A stretch of 27,546 nt of DNA from a virus. Shown piece by piece: positions 8,671-12,254 of the stretch (position 1 is the stretch's first letter; every line of letters begins with the position of its first letter). The DNA lies in the IMG/VR virus record IMGVR_UViG_3300044730_001309, positions 1 through 27,546 of that record; one strand, written 5' to 3'. Position numbers and translations under genes: made by a program. The notes under the pieces are model-generated. The model saw only the letters and a list, made by a program, of their open reading frames with translations, did not search any database and was not told the origin of the DNA.

Positions 8671-9348
8671 TCACCGGCTCTTCCTGCAATGAACCTTCTG
8701 CACTTGACTAGGGGAGACCGATACTTCCGCACCGCTTTGAGTCGAGAGAAAACGCAAAACCGTGCCACCGGCCCGAGCTTCAGCACTGAGAAAGCGGAAC
8801 CGGCCGTCCCTCCCTACTAGGGAGAACTCCGCACCTTCGGGAACCTTGATTCGATCCGCAACGTCCGGTTTAGGCTTCTTCTTTGCCGGCGAAGACGGGG
8901 GATTGGGTTTCGCCTTCTTGGGTTTACGCCCACGCTGGTTGCGCGGAGTGAATTCCGTCTTCGATTCGGCCGATGAGCACGCCCGCCGCCGCCGTTCACC
9001 CGGCTGGCGATCCCCGATACCCCTGGCCGCGTCGTAGCGTTCGGCCCTCGCAACCGCCCCATTCTTCGCCGCCTTCAAAGCAACGTATTGCAGCGTCACC
9101 ATCGTCAGCGACAAGATGCTGCCAGCGGCCTGCCGGTGAACCTCATCGTGGCACTCCTCGCACAGAGGAATCAGATCGGAGTCAAGCTCACTGCCCAACC
9201 TCTCGTAGGTCATGTGGTGCAGATGAACCCGCCGCTTCGACGCGCAAGCAGCGCACCGTTTTGCGTGGCTGCTGTAGTACTCCCTCTTCCTCCATGCCCA
9301 TTGGCAAGAAGCCATGTAGCTGCTGTAGTCCACTCGCGAAGCTGACAT
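8671..9348 (-). CDS. HNH endonuclease fused to an AT-hook and a small C-terminal domain
   Basis: 225 residues from ATG 9348, chosen because AGGAG lies seven bases upstream and because the protein then begins with the usual YSSYMASCQWAWRKREYY lead-in of phage HNH proteins. Residues 30-72 are the HNH/zinc module: CAAC (32-35), HLHHMTYERLG with His44-His45, DLIPLCEECHDEVH with Cys63, Cys66 and His71. Residues 135-163 are basic and Pro-rich with an AT-hook RGRKPKK (139-145). Residues 165-225 form a compact beta-rich domain (VPEGAEFSLVGRDGRFRFL, then GGTVLRFL). Such nucleases nick or cut DNA; the AT-hook suggests a preference for AT-rich DNA. It lies downstream of the integrase, 246 bases away. 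Confidence 0.75.
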   Translation of the reverse strand: MSASRVDYSSYMASCQWAWRKREYYSSHAKRCAACASKRRVHLHHMTYERLGSELDSDLIPLCEECHDEVHRQAAGSILSLTMVTLQYVALKAAKNGAVARAERYDAARGIGDRQPGERRRRACSSAESKTEFTPRNQRGRKPKKAKPNPPSSPAKKKPKPDVADRIKVPEGAEFSLVGRDGRFRFLSAEARAGGTVLRFLSTQSGAEVSVSPSQVQKVHCRKSR

Positions 9349-9587
9349 CTGGAAGCTCCTGTTTGCGACTCTGGCTGGTTTTGGGATACAGCCCTGCTCT
9401 AGCGAGGTGGTAAAAACCTGCAAACTTACGCGCCGCATAGACATCCCAGTCGTTCAGAGACTCCACCTGCCGGTACTGCCTGGGGGAGATGCGGAGGCTT
9501 TCGTTGCCCTCATCTGGGCCACCGAAGCAGCCCATGCGTATCAAGGTACAGCATGCGTGATACCGCACCCAAGGCAATAGTCGAACA

Positions 9588-9599
9588 AATTACGTCAGC
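9588..9599 (+). promoter_or_regulatory. Distant copy of the switch operator motif at the integrase stop
   Basis: AATTACGTCAGC is identical to 11232-11243 at the early promoter and overlaps the integrase stop codon (9597-9595). It may be a repressor or integrase-arm site; no promoter is evident beside it. Confidence 0.45.
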
Positions 9600-10521
9600 A
9601 GGCCCGCGAACTGGGGTTTCCCCTAGAAGCCACCGCTTCAGACACCGCACGCAGATCCGGCGAAGACACCGCCACATACCGCTGCGTCGTCGCCACCGAC
9701 GCATGCCCGAGAGCCTCTTGCACCGCACGCAAATTCTTAGTGCCGGCGAAACCACGAGTCGCGAACCGGTGCCGCAACTTATGCATCGACCAGTCCGGCC
9801 CCATCACCTCACCCACCAACCGGCCAACCCGATCCGCACTCATATGCAAAGCCACCGGATTGCCCCACTGGTCATAGCTTGGGAACAGATACCCTTTCGT
9901 CGGGTATCCCGGCGGCGTCCACGTCGGGCCCCTCTGGATCGCCTCAGCGAGCGAATCGGTGATCGGCACGATTCTCTGCTTGTCGCCCTTGCCGTGGACG
10001 ATCAGTGACCAACCGTCGCCGTCCCAGATCACATCGTCGCGATGAACCTTGCACACCTCCTCGCGGCGCAACCCGGCCTCACCGGCCAAACGGATCATCA
10101 TCTTGGTGCGCGGATCAGCCCGCTGGAGGATCTCCTCCCACAGCCATTCGGGTGCCGGTCGAGGTTTCGGCTGGGACTCAGCGATCTGCGGAAGGCCACG
10201 AGCCGGGTTCTGATCGGTGAGCCCAACCTGCATGCACCAGTCGTAGAACTGAACCAGCGAACAGCGCACTCCGCGCTTGTGTTCCTGGGCCCAGTGCGGC
10301 TGTGTCGCAAACAGCGCAACGAGCCTCTGGGTGCAAACGTCCTTGGGGTGCCGAAGGTCGAGTTCCCTTGCGGCGGAACGGACATGGCTTCTGCGGGTGT
10401 CCTTGGATCGTTTAGCGATCCCAGACGCGGTCATCCAGCGCAGCCAACCATCGACTGCGTTTTCCCAGTCCGGCGCTAGCCGGTACTTGGAAGTCCCTGG
10501 CATCCCTGCTCTCCCGGTCAC
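9595..10521 (-). CDS. int: Tyrosine-family integrase
   Basis: 308 residues from GTG 10521, whose GTGA overlaps the repressor stop; ATG 10503 with GGGAG upstream is an alternative. The N-terminal SAM-like core-binding domain spans about 15-110. The catalytic domain has Arg152 (GEAGLRREEV), Lys178 or Lys181 in HGKGDKQR, the HKLRHRFATRGF box with His247 and Arg250, His273 (EALGHAS) and the nucleophile Tyr282 (TTQRYVAVS). It would recombine attP at 10742-10781 with a host tRNA gene and, with an excision factor not identified here, reverse it. No long N-terminal arm-binding domain is obvious. It is translated right after the repressor. The C-terminus SSRAC is not ssrA-like, unlike that described for phage BPs. 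Confidence 0.95.
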   Translation of the reverse strand: MTGRAGMPGTSKYRLAPDWENAVDGWLRWMTASGIAKRSKDTRRSHVRSAARELDLRHPKDVCTQRLVALFATQPHWAQEHKRGVRCSLVQFYDWCMQVGLTDQNPARGLPQIAESQPKPRPAPEWLWEEILQRADPRTKMMIRLAGEAGLRREEVCKVHRDDVIWDGDGWSLIVHGKGDKQRIVPITDSLAEAIQRGPTWTPPGYPTKGYLFPSYDQWGNPVALHMSADRVGRLVGEVMGPDWSMHKLRHRFATRGFAGTKNLRAVQEALGHASVATTQRYVAVSSPDLRAVSEAVASRGNPSSRAC

Positions 10522-11120
10522 GGTTCAAGACTCCCCAGGTCTTGGGGTGTCAAGTTGGCCGGTGTTTTTATCACGTCCGTCGATTTTTGGAAAGTTTCGG
10601 AGGCAAGGTCTTTTACTTGCCGGCGGAAGGAGTTTGACAACTTTTTGACGCTTGGGCTAGTGTGTCGTCGCTCACTTCGATATGACATGGCGATAGGACT
10701 CACATGACCGCAACCGGCTCTCTGACCTGCACGGGGACAGCAATCGGGCGGTTGATGGTTCGAGTCCATCCGGGGGAGCCAAGCCAATTCGGTGAGGTCA
10801 ACGTAGGTCGGTTCTCCACTAGCGCGGGCCTGAACCGGACGTTCAACCGGTACTGGATCATCCGCGCCCTGCCCGAGCAGCCACGCTGCGGAGACTTTAT
10901 CAGGGAACAGTTCTTCGACGCGGCGTGCGATCCGTTCAGCGAGCCGCAGGTAGGGCTGGGCCCGGTTGCCCTCCCAGGAACTCAAAGTTGCGACGTTCAC
11001 TCCGATCACTTCTGCCATCCCCTCTTGGCTCACTTTGGCGATGTCTCGCCGCACTTTCCTGATCCTGTCGCCCCACGTCCATGCGGGGCCGACGTTGCCG
11101 GCGTTTCTGTTGGTGGTCAT
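10518..11120 (-). CDS. XRE-type immunity repressor containing attP
   Basis: 200 residues from ATG 11120. No ribosome binding site precedes the ATG, and a promoter-like pair ends seven bases before it, so the mRNA is probably leaderless. Residues 15-70 hold a helix-turn-helix of the XRE type (IRKVRRDIAKVSQEGMAEVI, then VNVATLSSWEGNRAQP). Residues 114-127 (WLPRMDSNHQPPDCC) are the antisense reading of a tRNA 3' half, that is the attP core. Integration would therefore replace everything after about residue 126 with host-encoded residues. The viral C-terminal extension is basic (SYRSERRHTSPSVKKLSNSF) and ends in GSLEP. It represses the early promoter at 11204-11233 by inference. Layout resembles repressors of phages with integration-dependent immunity. 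Confidence 0.88.
   Translation of the reverse strand: MTTNRNAGNVGPAWTWGDRIRKVRRDIAKVSQEGMAEVIGVNVATLSSWEGNRAQPYLRLAERIARRVEELFPDKVSAAWLLGQGADDPVPVERPVQARASGEPTYVDLTELAWLPRMDSNHQPPDCCPRAGQRAGCGHVSPIAMSYRSERRHTSPSVKKLSNSFRRQVKDLASETFQKSTDVIKTPANLTPQDLGSLEP
10742..10781 (+). other. attP core: 3' half of a tRNA gene
   Basis: From 10754 the sequence reads as a T-arm (GATGG, loop TTCGAGT, CCATC), then a 3' acceptor strand CGGGGGA, discriminator G and CCA (10779-10781). Upstream AATCGGGCGGTT fits the end of an anticodon loop, its stem and a variable loop. No 5' half of a tRNA is found before it, so it is a crossover core copied from the host tRNA. A G discriminator and U1-type acceptor would fit tRNA-Asn, among others. 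Confidence 0.88.
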
Positions 11121-11123
11121 TGG

Positions 11124-11141
11124 GCTGACGTTACCGATAAC
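11124..11141. promoter_or_regulatory. Operator-like site at the repressor promoter
   Basis: GTTACCGATAAC (11130-11141) is an inverted repeat with four-base arms, and GCTGACGTTA (11124-11133) carries the motif TWACGTCAGC (minus strand) shared with the early promoter. It covers the -10 box, as expected for autoregulation. Confidence 0.5.
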
Positions 11142-11159
11142 CGCGCTGGCCTGCAATCT
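11126..11159 (-). promoter_or_regulatory. Candidate repressor promoter, leaderless
   Basis: On the minus strand TTGCAG (11156-11151) and TAACGT (11133-11128) are 17 bases apart; the -10 box ends seven bases before ATG 11120, so the transcript would start at or beside the start codon. Confidence 0.6.
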
Positions 11160-11160
11160 T

Positions 11161-11182
11161 CCGCCGATTCCCGGCGGGCCGG
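11161..11182. repeat. GC-rich inverted repeats between the divergent promoters
   Basis: CCGCCG (11161-11166) pairs with CGGCGG (11172-11177), and CCGGC (11171-11175) with GCCGG (11178-11182), so two hairpins compete for the same bases. On the minus strand the stretch is preceded by a run of T. Role unknown. Confidence 0.4.
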
Positions 11183-11203
11183 AAAAAAGTTTGGGGAAAG
11201 GTC

Positions 11204-11233
11204 TTGACACGATCTACCGCATACGGATATGAA
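11204..11233 (+). promoter_or_regulatory. Early rightward promoter (PR-like)
   Basis: Perfect -35 TTGACA (11204-11209) and -10 TATGAA (11228-11233), 18 bases apart, about 40 bases before the first early gene. Best promoter in the window. Confidence 0.8.
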
Positions 11234-11249
11234 TTACGTCAGCGTAATT
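11232..11249. promoter_or_regulatory. Operator at the early promoter start point
   Basis: AATTACGTCAGCGTAATT is a perfect seven-base inverted repeat with a TCAG centre, lying across the -10 end and the predicted start of transcription. It shares ACGTCAGC with the site at the repressor promoter, as expected for one repressor acting on both. Confidence 0.7.
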
Positions 11250-11275
11250 ACAACCACGTTGGAGACAGGAATCTG

Positions 11276-11620
11276 ATGGACGTGAAGACAGTGGAGGTGC
11301 TGGGCGAGGCCCGTGACCTCATCGAAAGCGGCTGGTGCAAGGGCACGCTCACTGACGGCGAGGGCAGCTACTGCCTGCGGGCGGCGGTCGGCATTGCGGC
11401 TGGTGTGTACAGCATTGAAACCTCTGGCGATGTTGGCTTCCTGCCCTCCATCGACTGCGGCCTGGAGGCAATGAAGCGGGATCTGCACGCCGTCCAGCTT
11501 CTCAAGGACTTCCTGCCGGAAGGCACCACCTCCATCGTGGTCTTCAACGATCAGAGCGGCACCACCAAAGAGGATGTGCTGGCCGTCATGGACAAGGCGA
11601 TTGCGTCGGTGGCACTGTGA
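11276..11620 (+). CDS. DUF6197-like protein, first early gene
   Basis: 114 residues from ATG 11276, preceded by GGAGACAGGA. An in-frame GTG or ATG further up would overlap the promoter. The sequence fits the DUF6197 pattern: ARDLIESGWCKGTLTDGEGS near the start, YCLRAAVGIAAG, and near the end IVVFNDQSGTTKEDVLAVMD, the place of the usual WND-x-PGRT-x-x-x-V motif. These are small proteins of unknown role common in actinobacteria and their phages. As the first gene after the repressed promoter it is a candidate for a Cro-like, excision or host-takeover role, but no DNA-binding motif is seen. It overlaps the next gene by four bases (GTGA). Confidence 0.7.
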   Translation: MDVKTVEVLGEARDLIESGWCKGTLTDGEGSYCLRAAVGIAAGVYSIETSGDVGFLPSIDCGLEAMKRDLHAVQLLKDFLPEGTTSIVVFNDQSGTTKEDVLAVMDKAIASVAL

Positions 11621-11823: not shown

Positions 11824-12254
11824 AGGCTTTTTATCCATCTTCTGTTGGCCTTAACGGCCGATAGGATCGCAGTATCACAACTTCACATTTGAAAATACGC
11901 CTGTGCGAAAAGGAAGATCACGCCGGGTACTCCATATGATTTTTTGGCCTTGATATTCAGGTCTGTACGGTTTCGGCAAGCTTTACCGCCGTTACCCACG
12001 CTTTAGCGTGAAGCACCCGCGAGTGGCTTGCGGAGGTTAGAACCTGTTTATCGCAATGGTCACCCAGCCTCAGGTTCGATTCCTGTGGTTGGGACGACGG
12101 CCAGGGTTGTAGCCGCCCCTTAAATTCGATCTCCTTTCCCATAAGCGTCGGGCAGGGCGAATGGGAATCGTGCGGTGGAGATCGTGTGATGCGTGGCTCC
12201 CCTGGCCGTTCTTCTTTTGTTGAGGTGAATCCGTTTAGAGACAGGAGTCTGTTT
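11824..12254. other. Non-coding stretch with several hairpins
   Basis: No convincing gene is seen on either strand. It holds TTGGCC/GGCCGA around 11845-11861, a run of T at 11940-11945, CACGC-TTTA-GCGTG (11997-12010), CCGC-GAGTGGCTT-GCGG (12017-12033) shaped like a tRNA D-arm, AGGTTAGAACCT (about 12034-12045), and the T-arm-like hairpin at 12063-12093. A structured RNA between the first two early genes and the rest of the operon is possible. An in-frame GTG/ATG near 12186 could extend the next gene into its end. Confidence 0.5.
12063..12094 (+). ncRNA. tRNA acceptor/T-arm-like minihelix
   Basis: CCCAGCC (12063-12069) pairs with GGTTGGG (12087-12093, one G-U), then a T-T mismatch, then CAGG/CCTG around the classic T-loop TTCGATT, then a single A like base 73. 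This equals the 7+5 pair acceptor/T-arm stack of a tRNA without D and anticodon arms. It lacks CCA (CGA follows). No full tRNA can be folded here. Confidence 0.35.

Follow-up and report, generated by a model that had tools for sequence, protein, structure and literature searches.

A probable integration-dependent immunity module without ssrA-like tags on a viral contig with a tRNA-Asn attachment core

The location of an attachment site within a phage repressor gene is a layout already published as integration-dependent immunity (PMC9262239, PMC4557955). In BPs and the other cluster G phages, attP lies in the repressor open reading frame, a tyrosine integrase gene is adjacent and attB is located in a tRNA gene (PMC4557955, PMC9262239). 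In such systems, integration shortens the repressor by a stop at or close to attL, the short form being stable and active and the long one unstable or inactive; a Cro-like gene diverges from the repressor, with an operator between the two, and both a recombination directionality factor and arm-type attP sites are lacking. An ssrA-like tag on the viral repressor is typical, as is one on the integrase; tagless systems are counted as members, and the integrase tag is likewise absent in several published ones (PMC8092301). Among the latter types are the Mycobacterium abscessus prophages MabC, MabN, MabO and MabH, which harbor attP inside the repressor gene and whose repressors and integrases lack ssrA-like tags, other signals being presumed for the repressors (PMC8092301). 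Integration-dependent immunity has also been predicted for the group of the Gordonia phages Obliviate and CaptainKirk2 (PMC4929511, PMC5559632).

The window analyzed here, a 27.5-kb IMG/VR contig (IMGVR_UViG_3300044730_001309, 27,546 nucleotides), carries a locus by which a temperate phage of mycobacteria quite probably makes its immunity dependent on integration (Table 1). By its layout, which it shares with BPs, the window belongs to the integration-dependent immunity systems, with the ssrA-tag features absent; this membership is kept despite the repressor and integrase ends GSLEP and SSRAC because the ssrA tag is no requirement in PMC8092301. That neither end is ssrA-like had been correctly recognized in an earlier sequence-only reading. 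The contiguity of repressor, core and integrase shows that attP is present in the viral arrangement and that the contig is no prophage end. It further encodes an endolysin, a minor tail protein, a DNA methyltransferase, a DnaB-like helicase and a head maturation protease, and a DNA similarity search of the window against 50,697 phage records gave no matches.

Table 1. Coordinates of the features of the immunity locus in the window.
Feature	Coordinates	Strand	Remarks
Tyrosine integrase gene int	9595..10521	-	308 aa from GTG (alternative ATG at 10503); ends SSRAC
Repressor gene, viral form	10518..11120	-	200 aa; HTH domain at about residues 12-90
Viral-only tail	10518..10742	-	74 residues plus stop; ends ...TPQDLGSLEP; predicted disordered
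Junction, codon 127 (TGC, Cys, 10740-10742)	10739..10742	-	in silico attL
attP common core, 40 bases	10742..10781	+	equals tRNA-Asn(GTT) positions 37-76, 40/40 bases
Divergent regulatory region between repressor and rightward gene	11121..11275	.	putative function
Rightward gene, ORF from ATG at 11276	11276..11620	+	matches phrog_762 only; function unknown

The core corresponds to the part of tRNA-Asn 3' of the anticodon. The proposal that attP lies inside the repressor gene is upheld by this exact match, which is situated antisense and in frame in the 200-residue ORF. After 113 preceding codons, the core encodes residues 114-126 and the first base of codon 127 (its last base, 10742), so that the tRNA 3' half is indeed read antisense in frame. 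A search for the core in host tRNA genes, which had been suggested as a check, covered 84,980 species genomes and retrieved the exact 40 bases from four contigs, always as positions 37-76 of tRNA-Asn(GTT). Because the exact core sits in tRNA-Asn genes of Mycobacterium/Mycolicibacterium (three of the four contigs), the host is very likely a mycobacterium. The fourth contig (L006, 5.4 kb) comes from a MAG that bears the label Bifidobacterium breve and was probably misbinned. Given the exact core and the prophages of relatives at tRNA-Asn, integration elsewhere is highly improbable.

At the predicted attL, host AA directly follows the core and converts the Cys127 codon TGC into TAA, a stop to which the core contributes its last base and the host two bases, the antisense of the anticodon. 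All four host tRNA genes (L004-L007) yield the identical product in silico, a prophage repressor ending in ...WLPRMDSNHQPPD after 126 residues, followed by TAA. The shortened form, earlier put at about 126 residues, has exactly 126, and the few host-coded residues expected behind it are reduced to zero in all four hosts, as the junction itself generates the stop. Similarly, a Cys codon becomes TGA at attL in BPs (PMC9262239), and in MabC, MabN and MabO, as in MabK, the first bacterial base forms the attL stop (PMC8092301). In contrast to the tRNA-Asn used here, the site is tRNA-Arg in BPs, with a different reading frame through the core, and tRNA-Thr or tRNA-Arg in the Obliviate/CaptainKirk2 group (PMC4929511, PMC5559632), whose repressors are distantly related to that of the window (37% over 91 residues). 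Searches of about 800 genomes with the integrase and of 397 with the repressor yielded no lysogen of this phage.

The repressor matches the PHROG transcriptional repressor families phrog_4 and phrog_2328 (E about 6e-8), and its HTH_3 match (E 3e-4) falls just under the Pfam cut-off. In an AlphaFold model built from a shallow alignment (n=7), helices spanning residues 16-81 reach a pLDDT >90 in most blocks, and the whole protein beyond about residue 91 is predicted to be disordered. As the HTH domain, predicted with high confidence, lies before the attP core and the remainder is predicted to be disordered, the 126- and 200-residue forms should both be able to bind DNA. The long and short repressors of BPs also bind the operator region alike (PMC4557955). 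If both forms can bind DNA, the switch, provided that it works, would act on stability or a later step. A candidate operator is the perfect inverted repeat ATTACGTCAGCGTAAT at 11233-11248 within the divergent region. Beyond it, the rightward gene occupies the place of the Cro-like gene in BPs, although its own match is restricted to phrog_762.

Int (PF00589, E 7.5e-22; phrog_1, E 2.3e-38) is 44% identical to the integrase of cluster G phages. It adjoins the repressor gene in the same direction, and the anticipated GTGA overlap is borne out by the two ORFs, which share these four bases. Repeats in 10480-11300 comprise short two-copy pairs only, none of them convincing as arm-type integrase sites. 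Just downstream of the integrase, a gene at 8671-9444 (-) shows weak HNH-endonuclease-like matches.

The same arrangement recurs in viral contigs and bacterial chromosomes. Frame and core position in two viral contigs (L002 and L003) equal those of the window. L002 (IMGVR_UViG_3300042860_002533) is the nearest sister, with an integrase 74% and a repressor 60% identical to those of the window and the same stop/start overlap with int; its viral repressor has 185 residues and a tail ending DLGGAA, whereas that of the window ends DLGSLEP. The two contigs also align in a non-coding stretch (window 11830-12190 (+), L002 2340-2780 (-)) that contains a tRNA T-arm-like GGTTCGATTCC, then GACGGCCAGGGTTGTAGC; ARAGORN detected no tRNA there, Rfam gave no matches at E up to 1, and the folding z-score is -1.9.

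Related integrases came up when 397 genomes from the genus were searched. In three of them (G306, G241 and G190), a single contig carries both the integrase and the sole tRNA-Asn match, separated by 46-51 kb, as would be expected of the two prophage ends. Outside these three the ends are on different contigs, and we infer their pairing. Seven mycobacterial genomes with an integrase-side core possess an open frame that runs antisense into tRNA-Asn and ends at offset 37, on the same TAA derived from the anticodon (L048, L049, L050, L052, L055, L057 and L058). In an eighth (L053), the frame is a different one and extends to tRNA offset 14. Phage-repressor PHROGs match seven of these eight proteins including L053, i.e. 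six of the seven in the offset-37 set, the exception being L057. It is these profile matches that make the case, as openness alone carries no weight: the comparison locus L054, with a related integrase about 0.49 Mb away, also has a long open frame to offset 37, without any family match. Taken together, the exact core, the in-frame attL stop and the lysogen repressors of relatives cut at the same tRNA position substantiate the integration-dependent layout recognized in the earlier reading. Another repressor at the same tRNA-Asn site, whose frame through the core is a different one (APPPGLEPGTYR), is encoded in genome G270 by L019 and L053, which are on different contigs; its presumed viral tail ends LALAA and its prophage form ends ...LTAERSAN, including host-coded residues.

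The viral tail, earlier put at about 75 residues, comprises 74, with 12 K/R and 6 D/E, and ends in GSLEP. It is longer than the 33-residue tail of BPs, whose AA/AS-type end is missing here, and than the 20-35 residues by which the M. abscessus prophage repressors are truncated (PMC8092301). Third-position GC drops from 0.68 before the core to 0.50 in the tail, and this low value together with the predicted disorder suggests weak selection on the tail residues. The chance of an open tail frame is 0.06 in the window and 0.09 in L002, which is suggestive only. Among the viral-form C-termini of 19 systems, including the window, in which either a repressor ORF upstream or a matching attL determines the repressor frame, 13 end in -AA, one in VA and two, the cluster G/BPs group, in AS. 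The other three are the window, L021 (AVSGF) and L022 (AASGM). In the other two frames, 2/38 end in AA, both being integrase C-termini where the frame runs into int. The related systems L021 and L022 (genomes G312 and G201) have presumed viral tails ending DLPAVSGF and EFPAASGM, similar non-AA ends that perhaps constitute a shared other signal. No sigma-70 consensus matches for promoters acting against the viral form were found in the tail, and a single terminator-like site was located outside the repressor gene. For a TTGACA-like stretch near 10635 (+), no counterpart in L002 was apparent by eye.

In the proposed mechanism, repressor and integrase would be expressed in the infecting phage from an overlapping, presumably co-transcribed leftward unit, the repressor bearing the 74-residue unstructured tail. 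Recombination by integrase between the core and the tRNA-Asn gene of the host would then rebuild the tRNA and let the repressor frame continue into the anticodon antisense of the host, where it meets TAA. The lysogen would thus produce the 126-residue repressor with an intact DNA-binding domain, while tail and int would be left at the opposite prophage end. On balance, the 200-residue form is expected to be inactive or unstable, most likely via a tail signal that is not of the ssrA type. The need for another way of turning off this form, as raised in the earlier reading, presupposes that it is inactive; the degron may also have simply disappeared. Besides the core, the attL stop and the chromosomal loci, the module reading draws on the two viral contigs with equal frame and core position, on the -AA ends of 13 of the 19 viral forms and on the order of HTH domain, core and predicted disorder. 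The absence of an ssrA-like tag from both repressor and integrase counts against the module reading, as do the tag on the repressor of the nearest sister and the lack of a lysogen of this phage among the genomes searched.

The leading reading, turnover or inactivation brought about by a tail signal of non-ssrA type, stands ahead of three rivals. More specifically, it is tentatively proposed that the viral repressor of this lineage is turned off by a signal at its C-terminus, or by an effect of the tail, that differs from the ssrA-like -AA tag of the nearest sister and most relatives; this would represent an unmapped mycobacterial degron type. It is less probable, though still to be reckoned with, that the layout was inherited and the degron lost, leaving a stable and active 200-residue repressor and immunity independent of integration. 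Such a loss would fit the change from QDLGGAA in L002 to QDLGSLEP in the window and the AA, VA or AS ends in 16 of the 19 relatives; yet the tail frame is still open over 74 codons and still overlaps int, which would occur by chance at the above 0.06, and tagless members exist among the M. abscessus prophages (PMC8092301).

A tail that is not a degradation signal but blocks the repressor directly, for example in multimer formation or operator binding, is very unlikely. Its length (74 residues vs 33 in BPs), charge and predicted disorder would be in keeping with such a role, but the BPs forms do not differ in operator-region binding (PMC4557955) and the -AA end recurs among relatives despite widely varying tail length. 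Even less credible is a sequencing or assembly error that conceals a real -AA end. Here, the single metagenomic contig and the AA end of the sister have to be set against an intact stop/start overlap with int, as in L002, and against the two other tail frames, neither of which offers an AA or other ssrA-like end.

In the comparison, the tRNA-Asn cases mostly obtain a ready in-frame TAA from TTAAC, the GTT anticodon read antisense, and they do so with several divergent repressors. The repressors of the window and L002, which are 60% alike, share core and frame and end in GSLEP and -AA, respectively, form a natural pair, which allows a direct test of whether the -AA tag makes immunity depend on integration.
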